In this document: positions 10,643 through 23,934 of the stretch, one piece after another
Numbering within the stretch: position 1 is the stretch's first letter
Layout: each line of letters starts with the position of its first letter
From: Brevundimonas sp.
GTDB lineage: Bacteria; Pseudomonadota; Alphaproteobacteria; Caulobacterales; Caulobacteraceae
Reading direction: 5' to 3'
Length of the DNA stretch: 64,000 nucleotides
Assembly: GCF_013912065.1 (NCBI RefSeq)
Contig: NZ_JACESA010000009.1
Location: forward strand, 62,001-126,000
The notes under the pieces: generated by a model
The model's database searches: none
Told to the model about the DNA's origin: nothing
Seen by the model: only the letters and a program-made list of their open reading frames with translations
Made by a program: the position numbers and the translations under genes

Positions 10643-11509
10643 CTATCGCAGATAGTCCGACAGCTTGATCGAAATCAGGATGTTCAAAGTCGAGTACGAG
10701 GTTTGCAGAAGCGTCTCGTACTGGGTCGCGAGGATCGCCGCCTCGGCGAGGTCGGTCTCCTTCAGCGTGCTGACGACCGTGGTCAGGGTGTCGCTGCGGG
10801 CCGTGGCCTGTTCGGAGATCCGCTCCAGTCGCGACGCGGTCGAGGACAGGGAGGCGCGCAGGACGCCGATGCCGGACGCCGCCGTCTGAACGGCGTCGAG
10901 GGCGTCGGCGCTGGACATCGTCCCGGCCTCCAGTCCCTTCAGGGCGTCGATCAACCCGCTGAGCGCCGGATCGGCTGCGGTCACCGACAGAGCCAGGACC
11001 TGGCCGTCCGCAGTCGTATAGGCGCGGGCCGAGCCGCCGCCGTTGTAATAGGCGTCCGCGTCCGCCGCGTCCCAGGCGTCCAGATCGACCGCCTGGGCGT
11101 CAAGGGCGTCGCCGGCGAACAGGGCCTGATCGCCATAGGTGCTGTTCAGCAGGCTCTCGAGATCGTCCAGCCAGCCGCTGGCGAGCGAGGCCAGGGTGGC
11201 GCTGTCTTCGCCATAGGTGGCGAGCGACGACAGGATGGTTTCGGTCAGGTCCGAGATCGAGCCCAGCGCCGAATAGGCCTGTTCGACCACATTGAGCGCG
11301 CTGGCGGCGCTGGCGGCTTCGGCGTCGGCGGCGGCGATCTGGCCCTCGTGCCGGGTGATGGCGCTGGTCGCCGAACCATAGCCTCCGAAGGTGTCGCTCT
11401 TCAGGCCGGACGCGGTTTGCGCCTGAACGTCGGCGAGGCGCGCCTGGCTGGCCAGGCTGCGGTCCAGCACATAGAGGGTCTGACTGAAGGTGGACACGCG
11501 CCCGATCAT
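10643..11509 (-). CDS. flgL: Flagellar hook-filament junction protein FlgL (HAP3)
   Basis: A 288-aa flagellin-like protein whose N-terminus (MIGRVSTFSQTL) and C-terminus (ETDLAEAAILATQYETLLQTSY) form the coiled-coil D0/D1 parts shared with flagellin. It sits between FlgK and the filament as the last junction protein. The ATG overlaps the flgK stop (ATGA), so it is translationally coupled and is the last gene of the flgD-flgE-orf-flgK-flgL operon. The length fits the family. No terminator is evident after it. Confidence 0.92.
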   Translation of the reverse strand: MIGRVSTFSQTLYVLDRSLASQARLADVQAQTASGLKSDTFGGYGSATSAITRHEGQIAAADAEAASAASALNVVEQAYSALGSISDLTETILSSLATYGEDSATLASLASGWLDDLESLLNSTYGDQALFAGDALDAQAVDLDAWDAADADAYYNGGGSARAYTTADGQVLALSVTAADPALSGLIDALKGLEAGTMSSADALDAVQTAASGIGVLRASLSSTASRLERISEQATARSDTLTTVVSTLKETDLAEAAILATQYETLLQTSYSTLNILISIKLSDYLR

Positions 11510-13200
11510 CAGGACACCATGCTGATCAGGGCGTCGTACATGGCCTGGATGGCGGCCATCAGCTGGGCCGATATTTCGTACTGCTGCTGATACAGGCTGA
11601 CTAGGGCGGTCTGCTCGTCCAGGTTCACGCCGGTGGCGTTGCTCAGGCTGTTGGCGTAGCCGTCGCGCAGGGCCGTGGCGCTGGCCGCCGTGCTGGCGGC
11701 CGTCGATATGGTCGTCGCGGCCCCCGACAGCACATCCGTCGCATAGTCCATCAGGCTGCGGCTCCGCGCCGACAGATTTCCGGACTCGGCGAAGGACCGA
11801 TCCTCGGTCAGGGCCGTCATGAGCGCCACCGCGCCGCCGGCGCCGCCCGAGGCCACGGCGGTCTGGCCGACGGCCGCCGACGTGTCCAGACTGGACGCCG
11901 CCAGAAGACCTGGGTTCGTCGTCAGGGCGGCGACGACCCGGATGGTCGAGGCGTCGTCGCCGGAAAAGACGTCGTTGAATCCCATCCAGTCGGTCAGGGT
12001 TTCCCCGTCTGCGGTCAAGGCGACGGACGAATCCAGGGTCACTCCGCCCGAACTGCTGGAAATCGTCAGCTTGCCGTCCACGATACTGGCCGTGACGCCG
12101 CTGACGCCGTTCAGGGCGTCCATCAGTTCCCCGACCGTGGTCACCGTCGACAGGTCGATCTGGTCGACGGCCGTGGCGACGCCGGCCGTGGTCGATTGCA
12201 CGACGCCCAGGCTTCCCGTCAGCGACAGGGGCGTGGCCGCCGTCACGGCGGCGGTCGAGGTCAGGGTTCCGGGCGGGGACGCCGCGCCCGTGGACGCCGC
12301 CGTATTGACTGCGGAGATCAAGGTCGCCGCCAGACTGTCCAGCGCCGCCTGTTCGGCGGGCAGGGCCTCGTCGCGCAGGTCAATCAGGGCGCCAAGCTCT
12401 CCACCGGTCAGGCTGGAGGTCACGTCCCGCCCGTTGACGCTGACGCCGGACAGACTGGTGGGATAGGCGGAGTCGGACGACACGGCGCCCGAGGCGGTGA
12501 AGGACAGGGTGCTGACGGTCGTCCCGACCAGCATCTGTCCGCCAGCGTAGATGTTCAGCCGTCCCGACGCATCGGTATAGCTGGTGACGCCGACCAGACC
12601 CGACAGAGTCTGCAGGGCCGTGTCGCGCGCATCCGCCAACGTGGTCTGGTCGCCCTGCCCCGCCACGATCTGGTCGTTCAGGGAATCGATCTCGAGCAGA
12701 AGCGCATTGATCTCATCGACCGTGGTGGCGATGGCGGCGTCGGCGTCGGACCGAAGATCCTGAATTCCGGACGACAGGGTGCGCAGCCCGTCGGCCAGTT
12801 CGCTCGCCGCGCTGACCACCGCCGCCGCGTCGGTGTCGCCCGTGCCCGCCGCCAGAGTGGTCAGACTGGTCGCCAGCGCCGACGTCAGGCTGGCGATGTC
12901 GCCGCTGCTTGAGGTGTCGCCGAGCAGGGTGTCGTAACGCGACATATAGCTGTCGATGGTCTCGGCGTAGCCGGCCGAGGCGCTGCTGGAGATCAGCGAC
13001 TTCTGAAGATAGGTGTCGGTGACGCGCGACAGTTCGCCGGTGCTGAGCGCCAGGGTCGCCGTCTGGGATGTCGCCGAATAGGTCTTGGTCGTGTAGCCGT
13101 CGGTGCTGGCGTTGGCGACATTGGTCGTGCTCAGCGCCACCTGATACTGGGACGTCGTCAGTGCGGCGGACGCATTGGCGAGGGCCCCGGACAGGCTCAT
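11509..13200 (-). CDS. flgK: Flagellar hook-associated protein FlgK (HAP1)
   Basis: 563 aa. The N-terminus (LSGALANASAALTTSQYQVALSTTNVANASTDGY, read in pieces) is the rod/hook/HAP family signature with the ANAST motif. The C-terminus (TGVNLDEQTALVSLYQQQYEISAQLM) is the FlgK-type D0 helix. The long, Ser/Thr/Ala-rich middle is the variable surface-exposed part. It caps the hook and forms the first hook-filament junction ring. It overlaps the small gene before it and flgL after it by ATGA. Confidence 0.94.
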   Translation of the reverse strand: MSLSGALANASAALTTSQYQVALSTTNVANASTDGYTTKTYSATSQTATLALSTGELSRVTDTYLQKSLISSSASAGYAETIDSYMSRYDTLLGDTSSSGDIASLTSALATSLTTLAAGTGDTDAAAVVSAASELADGLRTLSSGIQDLRSDADAAIATTVDEINALLLEIDSLNDQIVAGQGDQTTLADARDTALQTLSGLVGVTSYTDASGRLNIYAGGQMLVGTTVSTLSFTASGAVSSDSAYPTSLSGVSVNGRDVTSSLTGGELGALIDLRDEALPAEQAALDSLAATLISAVNTAASTGAASPPGTLTSTAAVTAATPLSLTGSLGVVQSTTAGVATAVDQIDLSTVTTVGELMDALNGVSGVTASIVDGKLTISSSSGGVTLDSSVALTADGETLTDWMGFNDVFSGDDASTIRVVAALTTNPGLLAASSLDTSAAVGQTAVASGGAGGAVALMTALTEDRSFAESGNLSARSRSLMDYATDVLSGAATTISTAASTAASATALRDGYANSLSNATGVNLDEQTALVSLYQQQYEISAQLMAAIQAMYDALISMVS

Positions 13201-13517
13201 TTCCGCCTCCGCGCGCCCAACCGTCCTCCGGCCGCATAGGCGCCCGCCGCGCCGGCGCCGCGGTTCAGCCGCACGATCTCGGCCGAGGTTTCGCTCATCC
13301 CGGCGCGCAGAGTGTCGGCCCGGCGCTTCAAGGCGGCCTCGAGCAACCGAATATCGCTGATCAAGGTCGCTCTATCCGACCAGGGCAGGGCGGCCAGGCG
13401 TTCGGCCAGATCGTGGGCGATGGCCGCCGCCTGTTCGTAGCTTTCGACGATGGGACGGTCGAAGCCGGTGCGCCGCGAGCGGCCGGCCCGGTCGAGGATG
13501 CGGCCGATCTCGTCCAT
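13197..13517 (-). CDS. Small helical protein, candidate FlgN-type export chaperone
   Basis: 106 aa, predicted mainly helical, rich in Arg/Ala/Leu, without signal peptide or membrane segment. It overlaps flgE by ATGA at its start and flgK by ATGA at its end, so it is co-translated with both. Its size and place directly before flgK-flgL match what would be expected of a FlgN-like chaperone for the two junction proteins. The sequence itself shows no motif I can assign, so the function is inference from context. A Gly/Ala/Arg-rich tail (GAGAAGAYAAGGRLGARRRK) ends the protein. Confidence 0.7.
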   Translation of the reverse strand: MDEIGRILDRAGRSRRTGFDRPIVESYEQAAAIAHDLAERLAALPWSDRATLISDIRLLEAALKRRADTLRAGMSETSAEIVRLNRGAGAAGAYAAGGRLGARRRK

Positions 13518-14782
13518 CAGCGCACCACGGAGATCAGGGTGTCGAACATGTCCTTGACGCTGCTGACGACCTGGGACGCGGCCGAATAGGCCTGTTGCGC
13601 CACGATCATCTTGTTGAACTCGGTCGCGGTGTCGGTCGTCGAACCTTCCAGGGCGCTGGCCACGATGCTTCCCGAGGCGCCGACGCCCGACAGGTTTATC
13701 GTCGCCGATCCGCTGAGGTTGGTCGCCTTGAAGGTCGTGCCCGAGATCTGCGTCAGACCTTCGGAGTTGGCGAAGGTGGCGACCGGGACCTGATAGATGA
13801 CCTTCGTCAGCCCGTTGCTGAAGGTCGCCTCAACCTGGCCGCCGTCATTGATGGCGACGCTGGTCAGGGAACCGGCGACGATGCCGTCGTCGGTGATGCT
13901 GGAAATCGTGATGCCGGGCTCGTTGGCGCCGGAATCATACTGGGTGAGACCCGACGACTTGCCGATGTCGCCCAGATCCATGTCCACGGCAGCCGCCGCC
14001 GCGCCGTTGGTGAAGGTGAAGCCCACTTCCGTCGGATCGGGGCTGATGCTGGCCGGCAGACCCGAGGAATCGAAGGTGATGGTGATGGTCGTGCCGTCGG
14101 CCGTGCCGGTCGTTTCGCCAGTCGCGGCCGAATAGGGATCCCCCGTCGACAGGGTCCAGGTGTTGGCGTCGGTCTTGGTCCAGGTCTGATCGACGATATG
14201 GGTCGCGCCAAGACTGTCGACGATTGAGGCCGTCGAGGTGAAGACGTCGCCCACCTCGGCGTCGGCGGGCAGGTTGGCGGCGACGCTGACCGTGGTGGTG
14301 GCTTCCGCCGGGCTGGTCAGGTTGGAGAGGTTGATGGTCTCCAGACCCGAGACCCCGCCGCCGATGACATTGCCGTCCTCATCGGTGGGATAGCCCTGAA
14401 GGTAATAGCCCTCCGAGTTGACCAGATAACCCGAGGCGTCCGTCGAGAAGCTGCCGTTGCGGGTATAGGCGAGGTCCGAAGCCTGGCCCGTGGTGCTGTC
14501 GGCGACGATGAAATAGCCGGAGCCGTTGATCGCCAGATTGGTGCTGGTCGCGCTGGTGGAGATGGTGCCCTGAACCGACATGGCGCGGCTGAGAGAGGTC
14601 GTCACACCGCCGGCGGCGGCGCTGGACTTCATGCTGGCGCTGACCAGGGCCTCGAACGAGGTCTCCTTGGTCTTGTAGCCGGTGGTGGAGGAGTTGGCGA
14701 TGTTCTCGGAGATCGCCGACAGGGCGGCGCTCTGGGCCGTCAGGCCGGAAACGGCCGAGGAAAGGGAGGCGGACAGGCTCAT
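13517..14782 (-). CDS. flgE: Flagellar hook protein FlgE
   Basis: 421 aa. The N-terminus (LSSAVSGLTAQSAALSAI, then ENIANSSTTGYKTKETSFEAL) is the rod/hook signature with the ANSST variant. Next come the FlgE-specific GSGYFIV segment (about residues 86-92) and YTRNGSFSTDASGYLVN. The C-terminus (TEFNKMIVAQQAYSAASQVV) is the D0 helix shared with FlgG. It polymerises into the flexible hook under the FlgD cap. It is the second gene of the operon, 10 bases after flgD. The length is close to that of enterobacterial FlgE. Confidence 0.95.
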   Translation of the reverse strand: MSLSASLSSAVSGLTAQSAALSAISENIANSSTTGYKTKETSFEALVSASMKSSAAAGGVTTSLSRAMSVQGTISTSATSTNLAINGSGYFIVADSTTGQASDLAYTRNGSFSTDASGYLVNSEGYYLQGYPTDEDGNVIGGGVSGLETINLSNLTSPAEATTTVSVAANLPADAEVGDVFTSTASIVDSLGATHIVDQTWTKTDANTWTLSTGDPYSAATGETTGTADGTTITITFDSSGLPASISPDPTEVGFTFTNGAAAAAVDMDLGDIGKSSGLTQYDSGANEPGITISSITDDGIVAGSLTSVAINDGGQVEATFSNGLTKVIYQVPVATFANSEGLTQISGTTFKATNLSGSATINLSGVGASGSIVASALEGSTTDTATEFNKMIVAQQAYSAASQVVSSVKDMFDTLISVVR

Positions 14783-14792
14783 GGGATATTCC

Positions 14793-15449
14793 TCAGGCCT
14801 GGCCGTAGAAGGCGAGGACGGCGGATGGATCGATGACCGCGTCGCCCGCCCGATAGGACGTGACGCCGTCGGCGAGGAGGACGGCGTCCAGGGTGGCGAA
14901 GGCGGTGACGGCGTTGGACGCGGACGTGTCGTCGGCGTTGGTGGAGACCGAGGTCAGGGTCAGGATGTCGCCCTCGGCGACGCCGCTCAGGTCGGACAGA
15001 CTCAGGGACAGGCCGTGCTCGCCGTCGCCGGTCTCGCCGCTTCCGCTCCAGACGACGTCGCCGTCCTGATTGGTGACCACCAGGGCGGTCGAGGCGGCCT
15101 CGCCGTCCAGGGTGTAGGTCCAGCTGGCCGCGCCGTCCTGAACCGGGGCCATGGCGCTGTCGTACTCGACCTTCTGGCCGACATAGCCGGCGCTCTGGGT
15201 CGTCAGGATGGAGGTGAGAGAGGACGACAGGCTTTCCAGCGTCTCGTTGGTGGAGGTCTGCTGGCCCAGCTGGGCGTAACCGACGAGCTGGTTGGTGAAC
15301 TCGGTGACGTCAGTCGGTTCGAGCGGGTTCTGGTTCTGCAGCTGGGTGACCAGGATCTGCAGGAAGTCGTCCATGTCGATGGACAGAGCGGACGACGACG
15401 ACGAGGTGGTCGCCGCCGCCGTTGAGGTCGTCACATTAACCGTGGTCAT
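14793..15449 (-). CDS. flgD: Hook-capping scaffold protein FlgD
   Basis: 218 aa. A low-complexity Thr/Ser/Ala N-terminus leads to the family signature MDDFLQILVTQLQNQNPLEP and TNQLVGYAQLGQQTSTNETL, followed by a beta-rich FlgD tudor/Ig-like region. It forms the temporary cap beneath which FlgE assembles. It is the first gene of the minus-strand operon. Its 192-base upstream region is shared with the divergent flagellin gene; I could not find a convincing sigma-54 site there. Confidence 0.94.
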   Translation of the reverse strand: MTTVNVTTSTAAATTSSSSSALSIDMDDFLQILVTQLQNQNPLEPTDVTEFTNQLVGYAQLGQQTSTNETLESLSSSLTSILTTQSAGYVGQKVEYDSAMAPVQDGAASWTYTLDGEAASTALVVTNQDGDVVWSGSGETGDGEHGLSLSLSDLSGVAEGDILTLTSVSTNADDTSASNAVTAFATLDAVLLADGVTSYRAGDAVIDPSAVLAFYGQA

Positions 15450-15641
15450 GGGTCTTCGCCGAAGCCGGTGGATGTCACGGCTTCAACGGGACGAGGCGCG
15501 CCGATGGGGCGCACAAAATATCAGCGCCCCATTTGGCGGGGTCGCTCCGTTTCTCTGCTGAAGGTCGGGGTCAGAAAGCGCCCTGGCCTTCCCGTCCGGC
15601 GTTCGCCTGACGGTGTTCAGTCTGGAGAGAATGAGGAAAGA

Positions 15642-16466
15642 ATGCCCAGTATCTCAACCAATACCGCCGCCAACACCGCCCTGCGTTATCTGAACGCCAA
15701 CTCCGAAGCCCAGTCCGCCTCCCTGGCGAAACTGTCCAGCGGACAACGCATCCAGAGCGCCAAGGACGATGCGGCCGGCCTCGCCACCTCGACCAATATC
15801 GCCGCTGACGTGGTGGTGCTGGAACAGGCCGCCATCAACGCCCAGCAGGGATCCGCCGTGCTTCAGACGGCCGACGGCGCCCTGTCGCAGATCAGCGACA
15901 TCCTGCAACGCATGAAGTCGCTGACGGCCCAGTCCCAGTCGGGCTCGGTCGACGACGCCGGGCGGGCGAACATCGACGCGGAATATCAGCAACTGATCGA
16001 GGAAATCGACGACATCGCGTCGTCGACCAACTTCAACGGTTCGGCTCTGCTCGATGGCGCAGGCGACTTCTCGACCGGCGTCTCATTCCTCCTGGGGACC
16101 AGCAGCAGCGATACGCTGACGATCACCATCGACGGAGCGACGGCGACGGACCTGGCTGTCGATACGACCGACGTCACCTCCTCGGCCAATGCCGCCACGG
16201 CGATGGACGCGGTCGATGCGGCGATCAACACCATCTCGACGGCTCGGGCGAATGTGGGCGCAAGCCTGTCGCGCTTCGAGTATCGGGCGAGCGTCATCGA
16301 CACTTCGCTCGAGAACCTTGAGGCCGCCAAATCGGCCATCTCGGACGTCGATCTGGCTGCTGAACAGACCAACTACACGAACCTGTCGACCCTGACGCAG
16401 GCCGCCATCGCGGCTCTGGGCCAGGCGAACAGCATGTCGTCGTCGTTGCTCAAGCTGCTGCAGTGA
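15642..16466 (+). CDS. Flagellin (Caulobacter FljK-like, 274 aa)
   Basis: 274 aa, the short length seen in Caulobacterales flagellins. The N-terminal domain (SISTNTAANTALRYLN, LAKLSSGQRIQSAKDDAAG) and C-terminal domain (RFEYRASVIDTSLENLEAAKSAISDVD, read in pieces) form the conserved coiled-coil core, and only a small variable domain lies between. It is the filament subunit, exported by the flagellar type III system. ATG 15642 has a strong GAGGAAAG ribosome site; the frame is open upstream but without a plausible start. A UUCG-loop terminator follows, so it is probably monocistronic and highly expressed. Confidence 0.95.
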   Translation: MPSISTNTAANTALRYLNANSEAQSASLAKLSSGQRIQSAKDDAAGLATSTNIAADVVVLEQAAINAQQGSAVLQTADGALSQISDILQRMKSLTAQSQSGSVDDAGRANIDAEYQQLIEEIDDIASSTNFNGSALLDGAGDFSTGVSFLLGTSSSDTLTITIDGATATDLAVDTTDVTSSANAATAMDAVDAAINTISTARANVGASLSRFEYRASVIDTSLENLEAAKSAISDVDLAAEQTNYTNLSTLTQAAIAALGQANSMSSSLLKLLQ

Positions 16467-16471
16467 CAGCG

Positions 16472-16495
16472 CGGGCGGGGGTTCGCTCCCGCCCG
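16472..16495 (+). terminator. Flagellin terminator with TTCG loop
   Basis: CGGGCGGGGG, loop TTCG, CTCCCGCCCG: a 10-base stem with one G-T pair, starting 6 bases after the flagellin stop and followed by TTCCCTTT. The very stable tetraloop fits a highly expressed gene. Confidence 0.85.
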
Positions 16496-16532
16496 TTCCC
16501 TTTGACCTCCAGAACCGCGCCCCGGATCATTC

Positions 16533-18224
16533 ATGTCCACGACCTCCACAGCCGGCGTCTCGACCAGCAGCGGCGCCAGCTACATCACCTCGACCGCCTC
16601 GGGCCTCGACACCGACGCCCTGATCGAGACCGCCGTGGCGCAGAAGACCGCGCGCGCCGACACGATCGACGCCAAGGTCACCGCCAACGAGGCCAAGATC
16701 GCGGCCTATGAGGAGATCCAGACCTTGGTCGCGGCGGTGTCCGACGCCATCGAGGGGCTGGCGCTGCCGGCCTATTCCAGCCTGGGCTCCGAAAACGCTT
16801 TCGACTCGCGCAGTGCGTCGCTGAGCAGCAGTTCCGGCGAGACCGTCACCGGCCTGGCCGTGGACGTCACCAGCGACGCCATCAACGGCGACTACGAGAT
16901 CGAAGTCCTGCAACTGGCCCAGGCGATGAAAGTCAGCGCCTCCGCCGGTTCCTCGACCGAGGCCATAGGCGCGGCGGGCGTCCTGTCGCTTGGCGTCGAC
17001 GGCGGAGAGACGGTCGAGATCACCGTGACCGCGACCACGACCCTCAGCGATCTCGCCAAGGCGATCAACGCCCAGAGCGACAAGTCCGGTGTCCAGGCCT
17101 CGCTGATCAAACTGGATTCCTCGACCGTGCAGCTGGTTCTGTCGGCGACCGACACCAACCAGACGATCGTCCTCTCGTCGGTGTCCGGCGACGACGTCGC
17201 CCAAGCCATCGGCCTGACCGACGACACGGGCGCCTTCGCCAATGTGCTGCGCGAGGCCCAGCCGTCCATCATCACCGTGGATGGGGCCACGGTGACCCGC
17301 GACACCAACGAACTGACCGACGTCATCGACGGCGTCAGCCTGTCCCTGTCGGGCGTCACGGACGGCGTCACCACCCTGACCATCACCACCGATTCCTCGG
17401 CGGTGAAGACGGCGATCACCGACTTCGTCGACGCCTATAACGCGCTGAAACAATACATCCTGGATCAGTCGGCCGTCTCGTCGGACGGCGGCGCGGACGA
17501 GGATGCGGTGCTGTTCGCGGACTCGGTCATGCGGATGCTGAACTCCACCCTGCAGACCCTGATCAATTCGGGGAGCGAATCCGCCTCCGACGACATCACC
17601 CTGTTCAGCGACATGGGCATCACCTGGACGTCGGAAGGCCTTCTGGAAATCAGCGACGAGACGGCGCTGAACGACGCCATCCTGTCCAACCTGGACGCCT
17701 TAGAGAGCTTCTTCGAGACCGACTTCTCGACCTCGGACAGCAATCTGAAGATGCTGGCCAACAATACGACCAACTCGCTCGCCTTCACCCTGACTATCGT
17801 CACTGACGAGACCGGCGCCATCACCGGGGCCTCGGCGGACGGCGACAGCGGGGCCTTCACCATCTCGGGCTCGCGCCTGGTGGGCGCCGAGGGCTCCATC
17901 TACGAGGGGCTCAGCTTCACCCTGTCGCCGGCGACCAGCGGCGACATCTCCATCTCGATTCAGCAGGGCTTCGCCAATCTGCTGGCCCAGACGTTGAAGC
18001 AGTTCGACGACAGTTCGAGCAGCCTGATCCAGCAGCGGATCGACTCCCTGACCGAAATCAACACCGACCTGTCGGATCGCTCGGACAAGATCCGCGAGGA
18101 CGCCGAGACCTATCGGACCCGGCTTGTAACCAAATACGCCAACATGGAAGCCGAACTGGAGGCCGCCCGTCTGCTGCAGGAGCAGATCGCGGCCATCCTC
18201 GGCGCGAGTGACGATGATGACTAA
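16533..18224 (+). CDS. fliD: Flagellar filament cap protein FliD (HAP2)
   Basis: 563 aa. The N-terminal part (SGLDTDALIETAVAQKTARAD) is the FliD N domain, followed by long Thr/Ser-rich beta regions. The C-terminal part (FANLLAQTLKQFDDSSSSLI, SDKIREDAETYRTRLVTKYANMEAEL, AARLLQEQIAAIL) is the FliD coiled coil. It caps the growing filament and helps flagellin fold. It starts 38 bases after the flagellin terminator and overlaps fliS. Confidence 0.93.
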   Translation: MSTTSTAGVSTSSGASYITSTASGLDTDALIETAVAQKTARADTIDAKVTANEAKIAAYEEIQTLVAAVSDAIEGLALPAYSSLGSENAFDSRSASLSSSSGETVTGLAVDVTSDAINGDYEIEVLQLAQAMKVSASAGSSTEAIGAAGVLSLGVDGGETVEITVTATTTLSDLAKAINAQSDKSGVQASLIKLDSSTVQLVLSATDTNQTIVLSSVSGDDVAQAIGLTDDTGAFANVLREAQPSIITVDGATVTRDTNELTDVIDGVSLSLSGVTDGVTTLTITTDSSAVKTAITDFVDAYNALKQYILDQSAVSSDGGADEDAVLFADSVMRMLNSTLQTLINSGSESASDDITLFSDMGITWTSEGLLEISDETALNDAILSNLDALESFFETDFSTSDSNLKMLANNTTNSLAFTLTIVTDETGAITGASADGDSGAFTISGSRLVGAEGSIYEGLSFTLSPATSGDISISIQQGFANLLAQTLKQFDDSSSSLIQQRIDSLTEINTDLSDRSDKIREDAETYRTRLVTKYANMEAELEAARLLQEQIAAILGASDDDD

Positions 18225-18630
18225 CGCCGCCTATTCCCGCGCCATCGCCGGCTATCGGGCCGTCAGCCAATTGGCCCTGAGCCCCAGCGACATCGCCCTG
18301 GCCGTGCATCAGAAACTCTATGCAGCCGTCAGCGCGGCAAGATCTGCCGATGAGCAGAATCGGCTGGACGAGATGGTTTTTCACCTCGGCGTGGCCAGCC
18401 AGATCATCAGCGCCTTGAAACTCCACATGGATTTCTCGGCGGCCGGCCCGGAGGGGGCCAATCTCAAGCGCTTCTACGCTCGGACCCATCGCGACATACG
18501 CCGCATGGGAATGCTTCAGAAACGTCACAGAGACTGGTCAATCATTACAGATCCAATTCAGAACATGATTAGATCACTAATCAATATATCAAGATCGTCA
18601 CAAAGCTTATCTAATAATACAATGCAGTAA
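18214..18630 (+). CDS. fliS: Flagellin export chaperone FliS (divergent)
   Basis: About 138 aa. The pattern AYSRAIAGYRAVSQLALSPSDIALAVHQKLYAAV resembles FliS (the AYxxxxV...SPxxLVxMLYDG type, strongly drifted), and the position straight after fliD is the usual one. It would bind the flagellin C-terminus in the cytosol and stop early polymerisation. The start is ambiguous: GTG 18208, ATG 18214 and ATG 18217 are all in frame; I chose the first ATG. It overlaps the fliD stop. The last 30 codons are strikingly AT-rich compared with the rest of the window. Confidence 0.8.
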   Translation: MMTNAAYSRAIAGYRAVSQLALSPSDIALAVHQKLYAAVSAARSADEQNRLDEMVFHLGVASQIISALKLHMDFSAAGPEGANLKRFYARTHRDIRRMGMLQKRHRDWSIITDPIQNMIRSLINISRSSQSLSNNTMQ

Positions 18631-18641
18631 TATTATCCGTT

Positions 18642-18657
18642 TGGCACGCACGTTGCT
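18642..18657 (+). promoter_or_regulatory. Sigma-54 (-24/-12) promoter
   Basis: TGGCAC-GCACG-TTGCT is a full match to the RpoN consensus TGGCAC-N5-TTGCW. The invariant GG (18643-18644) and GC (18655-18656) are exactly 10 bases apart. Transcription would start near 18668, 22 bases before the ECF sigma ATG at 18690. In Caulobacterales, late flagellar genes use sigma-54 with FlbD-type activators, so this places the sigma factor in the flagellar hierarchy (inference). Confidence 0.9.
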
Positions 18658-18689
18658 TGGATTTGATCGACCTAACGCAGGTATAGATC

Positions 18690-19346
18690 ATGCATTCGTC
18701 CGCACTTCACGCCTTCCATCATCAAGACATCGCACCGAAGGCCGATCGCGCCATCGCGTCAGACCAGGAGCTCTATGAAGCCATGCGCGGCGGCGACGAT
18801 CTTTCCCTGCGAACCTTGATGGAGCGGCATCGGGGAATGGCGCACGCCGTCTGCCGAAACATCCTCGGCGACGAATGCGAGGCCGACGACGTCGTCCAGG
18901 AGGTCTTCTTCTCCCTGTGGAAGCGGGGCGGCTGGACCCCCGGCGACGTGCGCTTCACCACCTGGTTGCACCGGGTGCTGATCAACCGGTCGATCGACCA
19001 CCGCCGGCGTCGCCGCGACACGCCGACCGAGGCTGACCTGCTCAGCAGCGCGGTCGAGAACTTCGGCGCCGGCGGCGGGCCGGACCCCGAGGAAATGATC
19101 GCACGACAGGAGACCAGCGACCGGCTGCGGTCGGCGCTGCTTCGCCTGCCGACGGCGCAGCAGCAGGTGCTGAGCCTGCACTATTTCGAAGACGCGGACG
19201 TGCCGGAGATCATGGCGCGGCTGGCGGCCACTGAAAACTCGGTGCGCTCCCTGCTCAAAAGAGGCAGAATGGCGCTCCGGGAAGACCTACGGAAACAGAA
19301 GAAGATCTGGACCCATGACCTTGACCGAACTGCACGCCACGCTTGA
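18690..19346 (+). CDS. ECF-family RNA polymerase sigma factor
   Basis: 218 aa with region 2 (LYEAMRGGDDLSLRTLMERH, DECEADDVVQEVFFSLWKR, FTTWLHRVLINRSID) and region 4 (LRLPTAQQQVLSLHYFED, VPEIMARLAATENSVRSLLKRGR). Regions 1.1 and 3 are missing, as expected for group 4 sigma factors. It directs RNA polymerase to a specific set of promoters. A consensus sigma-54 promoter lies directly upstream. A 68-aa protein overlaps its 3' end by 32 bases. No anti-sigma gene with a membrane helix is adjacent, so control may be mainly at transcription. Confidence 0.93.
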   Translation: MHSSALHAFHHQDIAPKADRAIASDQELYEAMRGGDDLSLRTLMERHRGMAHAVCRNILGDECEADDVVQEVFFSLWKRGGWTPGDVRFTTWLHRVLINRSIDHRRRRRDTPTEADLLSSAVENFGAGGGPDPEEMIARQETSDRLRSALLRLPTAQQQVLSLHYFEDADVPEIMARLAATENSVRSLLKRGRMALREDLRKQKKIWTHDLDRTARHA

Positions 19347-19521
19347 CCGACTGGGTCCCGACATCAGCGCCTGGCCGTCGGTCCTGGCCGAGCCGGCGCT
19401 GGACCTGATCTCGATCTCCGACGCCGCCAAGGATCTGTTCGCCGCCGCCACGGAGGCCTCGCTGATCGCCGACGCCCCGGCCGCGCCCCGCTGGCAGGCG
19501 ACCGCGTCGACCGCCCCCTGA
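19315..19521 (+). CDS. Small protein overlapping the ECF sigma gene
   Basis: 68 aa, acidic and mainly helical (TLTELHATLDRLGPDISAWP, SDAAKDLFAAATEASLIAD). The layout 'L..L..LD..G.D...WP......A...L...S..A...' resembles short proteins often found directly after ECF sigma genes in alphaproteobacteria; this is from memory of the family, not a search. It starts inside the sigma gene in another frame, which points to coupled translation. It has no signal peptide, membrane helix or zinc motif, so if it is an anti-sigma or sigma cofactor it acts in the cytosol. Function unknown. Confidence 0.72.
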   Translation: MTLTELHATLDRLGPDISAWPSVLAEPALDLISISDAAKDLFAAATEASLIADAPAAPRWQATASTAP

Positions 19522-19658: not shown

Positions 19659-20372
19659 ATGACGCCCCATACACCCGCCATTCTGATCTTTGAGCGCCAG
19701 ACGACCTTCCCCGACGGCCTGCGTTCGTATCTCTGCCGCGAAGGGTTCGAGATTCTGGACGCGAACACTCCGGACGAAATGGAACAGATCCTATCCGCCC
19801 GCGACATTCGCCTGACCCTGATGGACATCGACGACGCGGACCTGAACGCCCTGTCCCTCTGCCGCGACCTGCGGGGCGCCGGCCGCGCGCCGATCCTCGC
19901 CACGGGGACGCGTAACACCGTATCGGACCGTGTCGCCGCTCTGGACATGGGCGCGGACCGATATCTGGCCCGTCCGTTCAGCCAACGGGAGCTTCTGGCC
20001 CATGTGCGGTCCCTCGCCCGGCCGCTTGCGCACGACGGCGACGTTGGCCAGCCGGGCGACCTGTGTTTCAGGGGATGGCGCCTGCAGCCGACACGGCACA
20101 AGCTGTTCACCCCGACGGGCGACGAGGTCGTGCTGACCCATCGCGAGTTCAGAATCCTGTCGGCCTTCCTGGACCAGCCCAGAACCCTGCTCACACGCGC
20201 CTTCCTTAAGGAGACGGCCCGGATCGACGACACGGGAAAGACCGCACGGATCATCGACCTGATGATCTATCGCCTGAGGCGCAAGCTGAAACAGGGCCTG
20301 CACGGCGCCACCCTGATCCATACGCGGCACGACAAGGGTTATGTCTTCACTGCGGCCGTCGTTCGTCAATAA
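19659..20372 (+). CDS. Atypical OmpR-type regulator with degenerate receiver
   Basis: 237 aa in receiver plus winged-helix layout. The receiver is damaged at key places: the acidic pair is E12-R13 (ILIFERQ where active ones read VVDDD), and the conserved Lys is R105 (ADRYLARPF). The Asp in the phospho-acceptor position, D56 (TLMDID), and T82 remain. The C-terminal domain is normal (LTHREFRILSAFLDQP, IDLMIYRLRRKLKQG, HDKGYVF). No kinase is adjacent. It may work without phosphorylation, through dimerisation or another input (inference). ATG 19659 has AAAGAGAG upstream; GTG 19641 is an in-frame alternative. It lies between the ECF sigma unit and the autotransporter, all on the plus strand. Confidence 0.88.
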   Translation: MTPHTPAILIFERQTTFPDGLRSYLCREGFEILDANTPDEMEQILSARDIRLTLMDIDDADLNALSLCRDLRGAGRAPILATGTRNTVSDRVAALDMGADRYLARPFSQRELLAHVRSLARPLAHDGDVGQPGDLCFRGWRLQPTRHKLFTPTGDEVVLTHREFRILSAFLDQPRTLLTRAFLKETARIDDTGKTARIIDLMIYRLRRKLKQGLHGATLIHTRHDKGYVFTAAVVRQ

Positions 20373-20493: not shown

Positions 20494-23400
20494 ATGTCGT
20501 CGTCGGGATTTGTGCTCAACATGCTTTCACGGTTCGCCACAGCGGCCGCCATCGCGCCGCTCGTGCTGGCTTCGGCCGCCCATGCCCAGGTCGAAATCTC
20601 CTCAGCCAGGAAGACACCGGTTCTGACCTCAACGGCATCCAACGGCTCGGCGGCCGACATCACTGTTTCGGAAGACGGCTCCGTCGTGCTGACGGGCGGC
20701 GTCGCCATCACCGGTGATTCCGACAATGACATCGTCCTGGAGGAAGGCTCGCTCATCACCATGGACAAAGCCGAGGACGGCGACACCGGCATCCTGCTGG
20801 AGGCCGGCCAGACGGGCGACCTGACGATGGGCGGCGCCATCTCGATCACCGATGATATCGACAGCTATGAGGACGAGGACGACGACGGTGACGCGGACGG
20901 CGAATTCGCCAGCGGCAGCGACCGGTATGGCATTCGCGTCGCCGGCGACGGCGTCCGCACCGGCGACATACTGGTGGAGGACACCGGCAGCATCGCGGTC
21001 CAGGGCAATGACTCCGCCGGCATATCGATCGAGAGCGAGATGGTCGGGAACCTGACCGTGCTCGGCTCCATCTCCGTAACCGGCGACAACGCCGTCGGCG
21101 TCCGGGTGGCGGGAGACCTGGACGGCGACGTGCTGCTGAGCGGCAGTTCGGTGTCGGTGACCGGTGAAAACGCCGTCGGCGTCTCGGTGGAAAGCGCCAT
21201 CTCCGGCGCCCTTCAGATCCAGTCCTCGGTGTCCAGCAACGGCTACCGATACACCTATCAGCCGACCTCGCTCGCCGACCTCGACGAGGACGACGCGGCG
21301 GACGTCGATCTTTCCGACGACAGCCTCTACCTCGAAGATCTCGACGCCGACGACCTGCTGCAGGCGGGTTCGGCGGTTCAGGTCACGGCCAGCGTCGGAG
21401 GCGGCATACTTCTGGGCGCCGCCCCTTCCTACGAGGACTCCGACGGCGAGGACGGCGACGACGACCGCGACGGCGTCACCAACGGCAAGGAGGACGACGA
21501 CGGCGACGGCACGATCAACGCAGACGACGACGATCGCGACGGCGACGGCATCCTGGACGAGAACGAGGGCACATCCTCCCTGACCACCTATGGGGCCGCC
21601 CCTGCCCTGGCGATCGGCGCCGCGAGCGACGACATCGTCATCGGCGTCTACGGGACAGGCGACTTGGCCTATGGGCTGATCAACGAAGGGTCGATCACGG
21701 CCTATGGCGTCTTCGACGACATCGCGGCGACCGCCGTCCTGATCGGCGGCGGGACGGGATCGACCCTGATCGAGGGGGGGATACTGAACGACGGTTCGAT
21801 CACCGCCAGCTCCAGCGAGGCGGACGCCACCGCGTTGCGGCTGTCGTCCGGCGCAACGGTCCCGACCCTGGTCAACAGCGGCTCCATCACGGCCACCGCC
21901 ACGACCGAGGGCGAGGATCTGGCCACGGCCTTGATGATCGACGCCGACGCCTCCCTGCCCGGCATCGTCAACAGCGGGACCATCGCCGCCTATATCTATG
22001 GCGAGGCCGGGGACGCCGTGGCCATTCGCGACGCCAGCGGCACGGTGAGCAGCCTGACCAATACCGGCGGCATCTTCAGCTACATCGTCGCGACCGACAA
22101 CGACGACGACGACGAGACGGACGACGAAGTGATCACGGGCCGGACCATCGCCATCGACTTCTCGGCCAACACGACGGGCGTGACCATCACCCAGGCGGCG
22201 GCGGCGAACGACCCGCTGTCCGACTACGACGGCGACGGACTCTATGACGACGAGGACCCGGACGATGACGACGACGGGATCCTCGACGAGGATGATGACG
22301 ACGATAACGACGATGACAACGACGGCGTCGCCGATGCGTCGGAGCCCTATATCGTCGGCGACATCCTGCTGGGGTCGGGCGCCGACACGGTCGATATCCA
22401 GAACGGCTATGTGATCGGCGACATCGCCTTCGGCGCGGGGGCTGACAGTTTCTCGCTCAGCGGCGGCGCCGTCTATCAGGGGGCGCTTTCGGACGAGGAC
22501 GGCCTGCTCGATATCTCCGTGATCGACGGGGTTCTGCAGGGGCTTCAGGGCGAGACGCTCAATCTGAGCAGTCTGACGGTCGGCGAGAGCGGCGAGATCT
22601 ATTTCACGATCGATCCCGTCACCGGGACCGTGGGCGACTATGTGGTGGCCGGCGCCGCCGTCTTCGCCGACGGGGCGACGATCAGCATCCACCTCGACTC
22701 GCTGGTCGATGACGACGGCCAGACCTTCCAGATCCTGTCGGCCGGCTCGCTGTCCTACGGCGACGTGCTGGGGTCCGACCTGAGCGGCAGTTCGCCCTAT
22801 ATGATCGTTTCGACCCTGTCCGGCGACGAGGCAGCGGGAACGATCGACGTCAACCTGCGCAAGCGGACCACGACGGAAATGGCCCTGTCCGGCGTCGAGA
22901 CAGCGGCGTACGACGCCTTCTACAGCGCCCTGAGCCGCGACGAAGACGTCATGGACGCCTTCCTGAACCAGTCGACGCACGAAGACTTCATGAACCTGTA
23001 CGAGCAGACCCTGCCGGATCATTCCGGCGGCACGCTCATGTCTCTGGCCAGCGGGGTCGAGGCGGTGACCCAGGCCCTGGCCGCGCGCAACAACACCGCC
23101 GCGGTGGGAGAGGTCAGCGGCTGGGTGCAGGAGATCAACTTCTACGAGGACAAGGACAAGACCGACACCTACGGCTATCGCGCGGAAGGCTTCGGCGTCG
23201 CCGGCGGGGTGGAGAAGATGACGAACGCGGGCGCGGTCGGCGTCTCGGTCGCCCTGGCCTCGTCCGACATGGAAGATCCCGAGTCGGAGGCCGAGGAGGA
23301 GTTGTCCGCCAACCTGCTGGAACTGGGCCTGTACTGGCGCGCCCAGGGGCATGGCTGGACCGGATGGGCGCGCGGCGCGGTCGGCTACGCCGCCTTCAAC

Positions 23401-23934
23401 AGCACCCGCACCCTGGTTGGGGACGACATCTATCTGAGCACCGACGCCGACTGGGACGGCTATACCCTCTCGACGGCGGCCGGGTTCGCCTATGAACACC
23501 GGTTCGGCCGTCTGTCCCTGAGGCCAGAAGCCTATGCCGAATATTTCAGCCTGACGGAGGGATCGCGTCGGGAATCGGGCGGCGGCGACGCCTTCGACCT
23601 GGAGATCGACGGCCGCACCGGCCATGTCGCCAGCGCCACCGCCGCCGTGAAGATCGGCTACGGCTTCGGTCAGAACCAGATGTTCCGGCCCGAGCTCAAG
23701 CTGGGGTGGAAGCAAATCCTGTCCGCCGAGTACGACGAGACCACGGCCCGCTACATCAGCGGCGGCGAGAGCTTCTCCCTGACCGGCGAACCGATCAGCG
23801 GCGGCGGCCCGGTCCTCGGCCTGGGCATGACCATGGCCAACGGCCTCAGTTCCCTGACCCTGTCCGGCGACGCGCAGCTGCTGGAGGACTATGTCCGCTA
23901 CAGCTTCCTGCTGCGGGCGACCTTCCTGTTCTGA
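20494..23934 (+). CDS. Large Asp-rich autotransporter (type V secretion)
   Basis: 1146 aa. A signal peptide (AAAIAPLVLASAAHAQ) is followed by a beta-helix-like passenger with repeated 'GSIxVTGDNAVGVxV' and 'NSGSITA' turns. The passenger is interrupted by four Asp-rich blocks, near residues 126-140, 315-356, 533-547 and 577-616 (for example DGDGTINADDDDRDGDGILD). These look like calcium-binding thrombospondin type 3 repeats. The C-terminal barrel spans about 873-1146 (SGWVQEINFYED to LLRATFLF, ending in Phe). It would insert in the outer membrane and display the passenger, which probably needs Ca2+ to fold. Start ATG 20494 or 20521; the second gives a shorter signal peptide. Role probably adhesion or surface structure (inference). 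Confidence 0.88.
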   Translation: MSSSGFVLNMLSRFATAAAIAPLVLASAAHAQVEISSARKTPVLTSTASNGSAADITVSEDGSVVLTGGVAITGDSDNDIVLEEGSLITMDKAEDGDTGILLEAGQTGDLTMGGAISITDDIDSYEDEDDDGDADGEFASGSDRYGIRVAGDGVRTGDILVEDTGSIAVQGNDSAGISIESEMVGNLTVLGSISVTGDNAVGVRVAGDLDGDVLLSGSSVSVTGENAVGVSVESAISGALQIQSSVSSNGYRYTYQPTSLADLDEDDAADVDLSDDSLYLEDLDADDLLQAGSAVQVTASVGGGILLGAAPSYEDSDGEDGDDDRDGVTNGKEDDDGDGTINADDDDRDGDGILDENEGTSSLTTYGAAPALAIGAASDDIVIGVYGTGDLAYGLINEGSITAYGVFDDIAATAVLIGGGTGSTLIEGGILNDGSITASSSEADATALRLSSGATVPTLVNSGSITATATTEGEDLATALMIDADASLPGIVNSGTIAAYIYGEAGDAVAIRDASGTVSSLTNTGGIFSYIVATDNDDDDETDDEVITGRTIAIDFSANTTGVTITQAAAANDPLSDYDGDGLYDDEDPDDDDDGILDEDDDDDNDDDNDGVADASEPYIVGDILLGSGADTVDIQNGYVIGDIAFGAGADSFSLSGGAVYQGALSDEDGLLDISVIDGVLQGLQGETLNLSSLTVGESGEIYFTIDPVTGTVGDYVVAGAAVFADGATISIHLDSLVDDDGQTFQILSAGSLSYGDVLGSDLSGSSPYMIVSTLSGDEAAGTIDVNLRKRTTTEMALSGVETAAYDAFYSALSRDEDVMDAFLNQSTHEDFMNLYEQTLPDHSGGTLMSLASGVEAVTQALAARNNTAAVGEVSGWVQEINFYEDKDKTDTYGYRAEGFGVAGGVEKMTNAGAVGVSVALASSDMEDPESEAEEELSANLLELGLYWRAQGHGWTGWARGAVGYAAFNSTRTLVGDDIYLSTDADWDGYTLSTAAGFAYEHRFGRLSLRPEAYAEYFSLTEGSRRESGGGDAFDLEIDGRTGHVASATAAVKIGYGFGQNQMFRPELKLGWKQILSAEYDETTARYISGGESFSLTGEPISGGGPVLGLGMTMANGLSSLTLSGDAQLLEDYVRYSFLLRATFLF

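Follow-up and report, generated by a model that had tools for sequence, protein, structure and literature searches.

A conserved sigma-54-type promoter site precedes an RpoE6-like ECF sigma factor gene in a second hook and filament gene cluster of Brevundimonas

The stretch of Brevundimonas sp. DNA analysed here (64,000 nucleotides of contig NZ_JACESA010000009.1, positions 62,001 to 126,000; hereafter the window) carries a flagellar gene cluster that includes a gene for an extracytoplasmic function (ECF) sigma factor of 218 aa (18690-19346, + strand). This gene is preceded by a perfect consensus match, TGGCACGCACGTTGC (18642-18656, +), to the −24/−12 promoter type recognised by sigma-54 (RpoN). 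In this TGGCAC-N5-TTGC site the GG (18643-18644) and the GC (18655-18656) are separated by ten bases, and counting from the −12 C at 18656 the transcription start is predicted at 18668, 22 nt upstream of the ECF start codon at 18690; fliS ends at 18630, upstream of the site. The initial annotation of this interval (18642-19346) had proposed a sigma-54 promoter ahead of an ECF gene within a flagellar cluster. The candidate site is confirmed, and its coordinates, the predicted start and the 22-nt distance all proved correct.

Conservation is the strongest evidence for a sigma-54 promoter at this place. In a survey of 131 Brevundimonas genomes with the ECF protein (E 1e-30; 110 of the 131 genomes at least 90% complete), the gene was found in six, namely the genome of the window itself, G023, G045 and G096 (89%), and G019 and G048 (62%); among named records the closest is B. 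intermedia VKM B-1499, which also carries the cluster and whose ECF protein is 89% identical. These six genomes form two lineages and do not count as six independent trials. Comparison with relatives that keep the ECF gene, suggested as a check in the initial annotation, shows the −24/−12 site in all six, the 62%-identical lineage included, with TGGCAC in five, TGGCAT in G019 and TTGCT throughout. The −12 C and the ATG are 34 nt apart in four genomes and 35 nt in two, while the gap between fliS and the site varies from 11 to 47 bases, so that the site stands at a near-fixed distance in both lineages though the gap around it aligns poorly. Among the four close genomes all 12 motif columns are invariant, whereas of the 22 columns around the motif 7 are (Fisher p = 9e-5, for a motif chosen beforehand and for genomes that are related, not independent). 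The chance of finding TGGCAY-N5-TTGC within 150 bp upstream of the ECF start was put at 0.00015-0.0015 per genome (first-order Markov model, 20,000 draws each). TGGCACGCACGTTGC is also the one perfect match that the window contains. When up to two mismatches are allowed, 30 matches appear against a mean of 59 in shuffled sequence; being rarer than expected, such weak matches are uninformative. The 22-nt ECF leader that would follow the predicted start (CGACCTAACGCAGGTA..GATC, 18669-18689, +) varies very little among the four close genomes, and could form a small hairpin of ACCT with AGGT that covers its AGG.

The remaining genes of the cluster are arranged in two divergent groups. On the + strand, the ECF gene is preceded by fliC for a small flagellin of 274 aa (15642-16466; Pfam Flagellin_N and Flagellin_C), fliD for the filament cap (16533-18224; Pfam FliD_N and FliD_C) and fliS for the filament chaperone (18208-18630; Pfam FliS, 28 bits, cut-off 26.7). 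A G+C-rich hairpin between fliC and fliD (16471-16496, +) is kept in the six genomes without a T run, and its folding is no better than that of shuffled sequences (z −0.99). On the − strand lie flgD for the hook cap (14793-15449; Pfam FlgD), flgE for a hook protein of non-Caulobacter type (13517-14782; NCBIfam PRK05682.2-1, 481.6 bits against a cut-off of 365; score below the cut-off of the flgE_Caulobact model), a gene x for a 106-aa protein that is kept in all six genomes and gave no clear Azospirillum match (13197-13517), and the hook-filament junction genes flgK (11509-13200; NCBIfam flgK_ends) and flgL (10643-11509; Pfam Flagellin_C). The order flgL-flgK-x-flgE-flgD / fliC-fliD-fliS-ECF-small is conserved in 6/6 genomes, and fliD and the ECF gene are confined to the same six genomes among the 131 searched. 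The ECF protein itself matches Pfam Sigma70_r2, r4 and r4_2, with sigma regions 2 and 4 only at E 0.001 and region 3 absent.

The last gene of the conserved order (19315-19521, +), which overlaps the ECF gene by 32 nt in all six genomes, encodes a 68-aa putative soluble anti-sigma factor with similarity to Asf6 of Azospirillum brasilense (38% over 39 aa, E 2e-6 in a single comparison). A long hydrophobic stretch was looked for in this small protein and none was found. It resembles the start of a 138-aa protein encoded beside another ECF gene of the same genome, in which the hydrophobic maximum is 1.76, compared with 1.06 in the small protein. At that other locus (L072 8510-9902, −) an ECF gene, 35% identical, is followed by genes for the 138-aa protein, which carries a GADLRRWP motif and the hydrophobic stretch, and for a Spy-like protein. 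The 138-aa protein is probably a membrane-bound form of the small anti-sigma-like protein. Soluble anti-sigma factors can arise by truncation (PMC8103513), and the small protein is in line with this.

By its gene content, the cluster of the window is a second set of distal flagellar parts, since the genome also has a Caulobacter-type FlgE on contig C3 (841.9 bits, cut-off 750), three more flagellins (four flagellin matches in all, three of them on C3) and one FlhA. No basal-body gene was seen in the inspected parts of the window and the neighbouring 20 kb, for which annotation was partial. From the single FlhA we infer that the second set is probably assembled on the primary basal body and export gate. 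G023 encodes a second, more divergent FlhA-type protein (C11:478972-480906, 740.5 bits) that is absent from the genome of the window. A cassette of hook and filament genes in which no basal-body genes are seen points to the possibility of alternative filaments on one motor.

The closest characterised counterpart of this cluster is found in Azospirillum; the initial annotation remarked neither on this counterpart nor on the nature of the cluster as a second, alternative set. A tblastn search of plasmids with the ECF protein (E 1e-15) gave 14 records, of which the best three are p3 plasmids of A. brasilense, and the best plasmid match of FliD also leads to Azospirillum p3. The A. brasilense record carries WP_035682069, which is the RpoE6 of PMC12826043, with the same neighbours. 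Identities to the Azospirillum set are 58% for FliC (over 274 aa, to FliC2), 44% for FlgE, 39% for FliD, 39% for the ECF factor (over 182 aa), 35% for FlgK, 25% for FlgL (E 4e-20) and 24% for FliS (E 0.007 only), besides the 38% over 39 aa of the small protein. RpoE6 drives fliC2 from a promoter whose start was mapped by 5′ RACE and deletion and in which CGCCAG-N16-CGTGAG is essential; Asf6 binds RpoE6 in two-hybrid assays and lowers FliC2, with mutant evidence as well (PMC12826043). As orthologs of RpoE6 are more than 50% identical to it according to the same source, the 39% identity found here makes the ECF factor RpoE6-like, by gene content and apparent promoter type, rather than a strict ortholog.

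In a class-wide search of 385 genomes at E 1e-38, 74 contained an ECF match, with 30 loci among the matches listed. In 7 of the 29 listed loci other than that of the window, FliC, FliD or FliS adjoins the ECF gene, and these seven together with two Azospirillum records make up nine related loci. Four of the nine (G340, G392, G167 and G468) have a divergent layout like that of Brevundimonas. Among the matches listed, the nine related loci show no sigma-54 site before the ECF gene when up to one mismatch is allowed; the two sites of this quality that they contain, at G167 +14126 and G170 +1734, lie kilobases away from it, and L162 has a two-mismatch site 300 nt upstream of its ECF match, near or in fliS. 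Since the site is found at 6/6 Brevundimonas loci against 0/9 related ones, sigma-54 input to this type of ECF factor would be, as far as seen, a Brevundimonas feature.

Candidate targets of the ECF factor are apparent within the cluster. The gap between flgD and fliC holds two outward-facing copies of GCGCCCCA-N15-YCGTT, conserved on both sides in 6/6 genomes. The copy on the fliC side (GCGCCCCA-N15-CCGTT, 15524-15551, +) is a candidate ECF promoter 118 nt upstream of the fliC ATG (119 nt in two of the six genomes), and the copy on the other side, of the same sequence form (15485-15512, −), lies 63 nt upstream of the flgD ATG. The fliC2 promoter of A. brasilense, GCGCCAGCTTTCGCGGCGCAGGCCGTGAG, has this form with a spacing one base shorter. 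A palindromic operator between flgD and fliC (ATGGGGCGC facing GCGCCCCAT) was considered and set aside, because its halves lie about 11 bases apart in one lineage and about 45 in the other, while the CGTT spacing of each half is constant. Of 15 loci, 13 have the more general pattern [GC]CGCC-N18/19-CGT[GT] within 180 bp upstream of fliC, and of the 10 loci with a divergent layout 9 have it on the flgD side; chance would give 0.028 per 180 bp. The fliC boxes are found in loci of several alphaproteobacterial families. Single matches are common, at least one perfect GCGCCCCA-N15-YCGTT being present in 43 of the 131 genus genomes. The close divergent pair is confined to the six ECF genomes, which does not by itself link it to the ECF factor because no other genome of the genus set has the cluster. 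The regulon of the ECF factor is likely the hook-filament cluster itself, and if the promoter form holds, GCGCC-N18/19-CGT would make this regulon readable from sequence.

Taken together, these observations make it likely, in our judgement, that the sigma-54 promoter starts an RpoE6-type circuit driving a second hook-filament set. In such a circuit, sigma-54 RNA polymerase with an enhancer-binding protein would transcribe the ECF gene and the overlapping anti-sigma-like gene, and the ECF factor, once free of the small protein, would read the two divergent GCGCC-N18/19-CGT promoters. The fliC-side promoter would serve fliC-fliD-fliS, with transcription probably continuing into the ECF gene, a positive feedback as in Azospirillum which the fliC-fliD hairpin might dampen by lowering read-through. 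The flgD-side promoter would serve flgD-flgE-x-flgK-flgL. The products would form a second distal set of hook, junction, small flagellin, cap and chaperone, placed on the primary basal body and export gate.

Several observations weigh against this proposal. The 3.54 Mb assembly holds two perfect sigma-54 matches against four for a reversed control pattern, and the match count is no proof because it does not exceed that control; the positions are more informative, the second match preceding a flgF-like gene. At 18595-18623, in the gap before the ECF gene, there is also a sigma-70-like match (9 of 12); the scan gave two such sites against 0.4 expected. With respect to the boxes, G340 lacks both the fliC-side and the flgD-side copy, the tested fliC of G173 has none (a second fliC in that genome has one), and the box pattern was fixed after most loci had been inspected, so that the fair test is small, being confined to three boxes not seen beforehand (upstream of fliC in G167 and G468, and upstream of flgD in G468). 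Boxes with one mismatch occur throughout the genome of the window (28 against 12 for a control), perfect boxes occur outside the cluster in three ECF genomes (one on C42 of the window's genome, one in G019 and two in G045), and the boxes are without the AAC that the −35 element of ECF promoters usually has (PMC8103513). The C42 box (L035 1363-1529, −) lies shortly upstream of an ARAGORN tRNA call of unclear anticodon and may be a further target or a chance match; together with a similar box on C131 of G045 it adds to these points. Finally, the identity to RpoE6 is below the ortholog level, and the similarity to Asf6 spans 39 residues only.

The proposal leaves a choice of activator. The genome has one Sigma54_DBD protein (rpoN) and seven Sigma54_activat matches, of which four are strong: FlbD (799 bits, cut-off 750), NtrX (752.8 bits, cut-off 600) and two NtrC-like proteins, for which none of the matches listed is over its cut-off. 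One reading places the ECF site in the FlbD-controlled late class, so that the ECF factor would follow hook completion of the primary flagellum. FlbD is present and the ECF gene lies within a flagellar cluster. Eight stretches of the genome, chosen for flagellar genes, were scanned for sigma-54 sites before frames of at least 90 aa, which gave 17 sites with at most two mismatches and seven with at most one; five of these seven stand before genes of the primary flagellum (flgF-, fliK- and flgK-like genes and two flagellins), and the other two before the ECF gene and before a frame of 112 aa. GGCAAAA-type words, which we take to be FlbD sites, are found near all but one of the five primary promoters (with a single region common to fliK and flgK), whereas a matrix built from six instances in four regions gave no conserved match within 1.5 kb of the ECF promoter in the six genomes. 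At a strict threshold there is one unconserved match, in G045, and none in the other five; at a loose threshold there are matches in G023, G045, G019 and G048. This result also counts against the proposed circuit, and because the motif is not conserved there, the ECF promoter may lie outside the FlbD class. The flagellar connection drawn in the initial annotation thus stands in part: it is favoured by the five primary flagellar genes among the seven best sites, in stretches picked for flagella, while its FlbD-type flagellar promoter is not borne out by the motif. Control by FlbD remains a plausible reading, to which we give slightly less than even weight.

Another reading is that a different sigma-54 activator (TacA-like, NtrX or NtrC-like) is in charge, the second set then following the swarmer-to-stalk transition or the nitrogen state. 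We consider this a credible option too, somewhat short of being favoured. Two NtrC-like proteins and NtrX are at hand besides FlbD; which protein is TacA is our own assumption, and this tells against the reading. RpoN motifs of Caulobacter are described as falling into two classes, associated with flagellar genes and with swarmer-to-stalk genes such as spmX (PMC4287350), which is favourable to it.

It is also conceivable, though unlikely, that the ECF gene takes part in an ordinary RpoE6-type feedback, with its transcription coming from the fliC promoter and perhaps from a sigma-70 promoter in the AT-rich gap, and that the sigma-54 site is weak or unused. The sigma-70-like match and the lack of a terminator-like site at 18400-18800 agree with this, as does the A. 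brasilense system, in which a search for an RpoE6-dependent promoter before rpoE6 detected none and one operon from fliC2 was inferred (PMC12826043). That experiment addressed RpoE6-dependent activity, not sigma-54, and against this reading stands the sigma-54 site, kept in 6/6 genomes at a near-fixed distance while the neighbouring columns vary.

The initial annotation had further suggested that the new regulon comprises surface or adhesion genes such as an autotransporter downstream. The gene in question (20494-23934, +) encodes a 1146-aa protein with abundant acidic repeats and adjoins the ECF operon in four of the six genomes; its identity as an autotransporter could not be confirmed, the search of Pfam giving no credible match (HolB_lid only, E 0.21, limit 10). 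In G019 and G048 a TonB-receptor-like gene occupies its place. An OmpR-type response regulator gene (19659-20372, +) separates the small gene from the autotransporter-like gene in the genome of the window only, three close relatives being without it at that place. The sequence GAAACAAT, with a similar tail, stands before both the response regulator gene (19565, +) and the autotransporter-like gene (20398, +), perhaps as part of an insertion. The search for a shared motif upstream of the autotransporter-like gene, also suggested at the outset, yielded this repeat and, in the upstream alignment, no GCGCC-N-CGT box; the repeat was rejected as an ECF motif, being missing from the corresponding regions of five relatives. 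A regulon consisting chiefly of this gene is thus very improbable, for although the gene follows the small gene in 4/6 genomes (with the response regulator between them in the window), it is replaced in 2/6, has no credible Pfam family and shows no ECF-type box in the upstream alignment.

Returning to the proposed sigma-54-started circuit, it is tempting to speculate that the cluster acts as a filament switch, in which a sigma-54 programme (a flagellar checkpoint or the swarmer-to-stalk transition) would set off an RpoE6-type loop that amplifies itself and includes a shortened, soluble anti-sigma factor, and would so exchange the distal hook and filament on a single basal body for a second set. 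This more specific scenario is tentative, and we would not expect it to hold in full. If true, two kinds of flagellum would be made from one motor, and the sigma-54 promoter would explain how a feedback loop with no known trigger in Azospirillum can get started; the activating signal of RpoE6 is not known according to the available text of PMC12826043. A conserved sigma-54 promoter before an RpoE6 relative would provide a concrete entry point, with four candidate activators.

Compared with known systems, the Brevundimonas cluster shares with RpoE6/Asf6 the core genes, a 274-aa flagellin, a GCGCC/CGT promoter form before fliC and non-FliA-like sigma domains. It differs in that the small protein has 68 aa here and 98 aa there, the box spacing is one base longer, fliC-fliD-fliS-ECF is divergent from flgD-flgE-x-flgK-flgL with a box on each side, and the ECF gene is preceded by a sigma-54 site, none with at most one mismatch being present in the Azospirillum loci. 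The upper step resembles that of hrpL of Pseudomonas syringae, which is transcribed with HrpR, HrpS and RpoN (PMC7691447): in both cases sigma-54 and enhancer-binding proteins would act on an ECF gene whose product serves an export apparatus and its products (PMC7691447, PMC8103513). HrpL, unlike the present factor, serves type III secretion and represses its own gene (PMC7691447, PMC8103513), whereas here the targets would be flagellar filament genes, an anti-sigma factor is probable and the feedback is probably positive. The HrpL cascade is therefore used as a working analogy, with no claim of membership. The late class of Caulobacter under sigma-54 and FlbD has the same −24/−12 promoter type, which in the genome of the window is also found upstream of flagellin genes and of flgF-, fliK- and flgK-like genes; it differs in that the gene driven here is a sigma factor and that the motif common to most of those primary promoters is not conserved at the ECF promoter. 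FliA, with its anti-sigma factor FlgM, is the late sigma factor for filament genes and is itself under another sigma factor in several species. The present factor differs from it in having regions 2 and 4 only and in apparently targeting only an accessory filament set, and no FlgM-like protein was found. In the open-access literature, including the available text of PMC12826043, no report of sigma-54 input to an RpoE6-type factor was found. Transcription of an ECF gene by sigma-54 is known from hrpL and control of a filament by an ECF factor from RpoE6; the presence of both steps in a flagellar cassette looks new.
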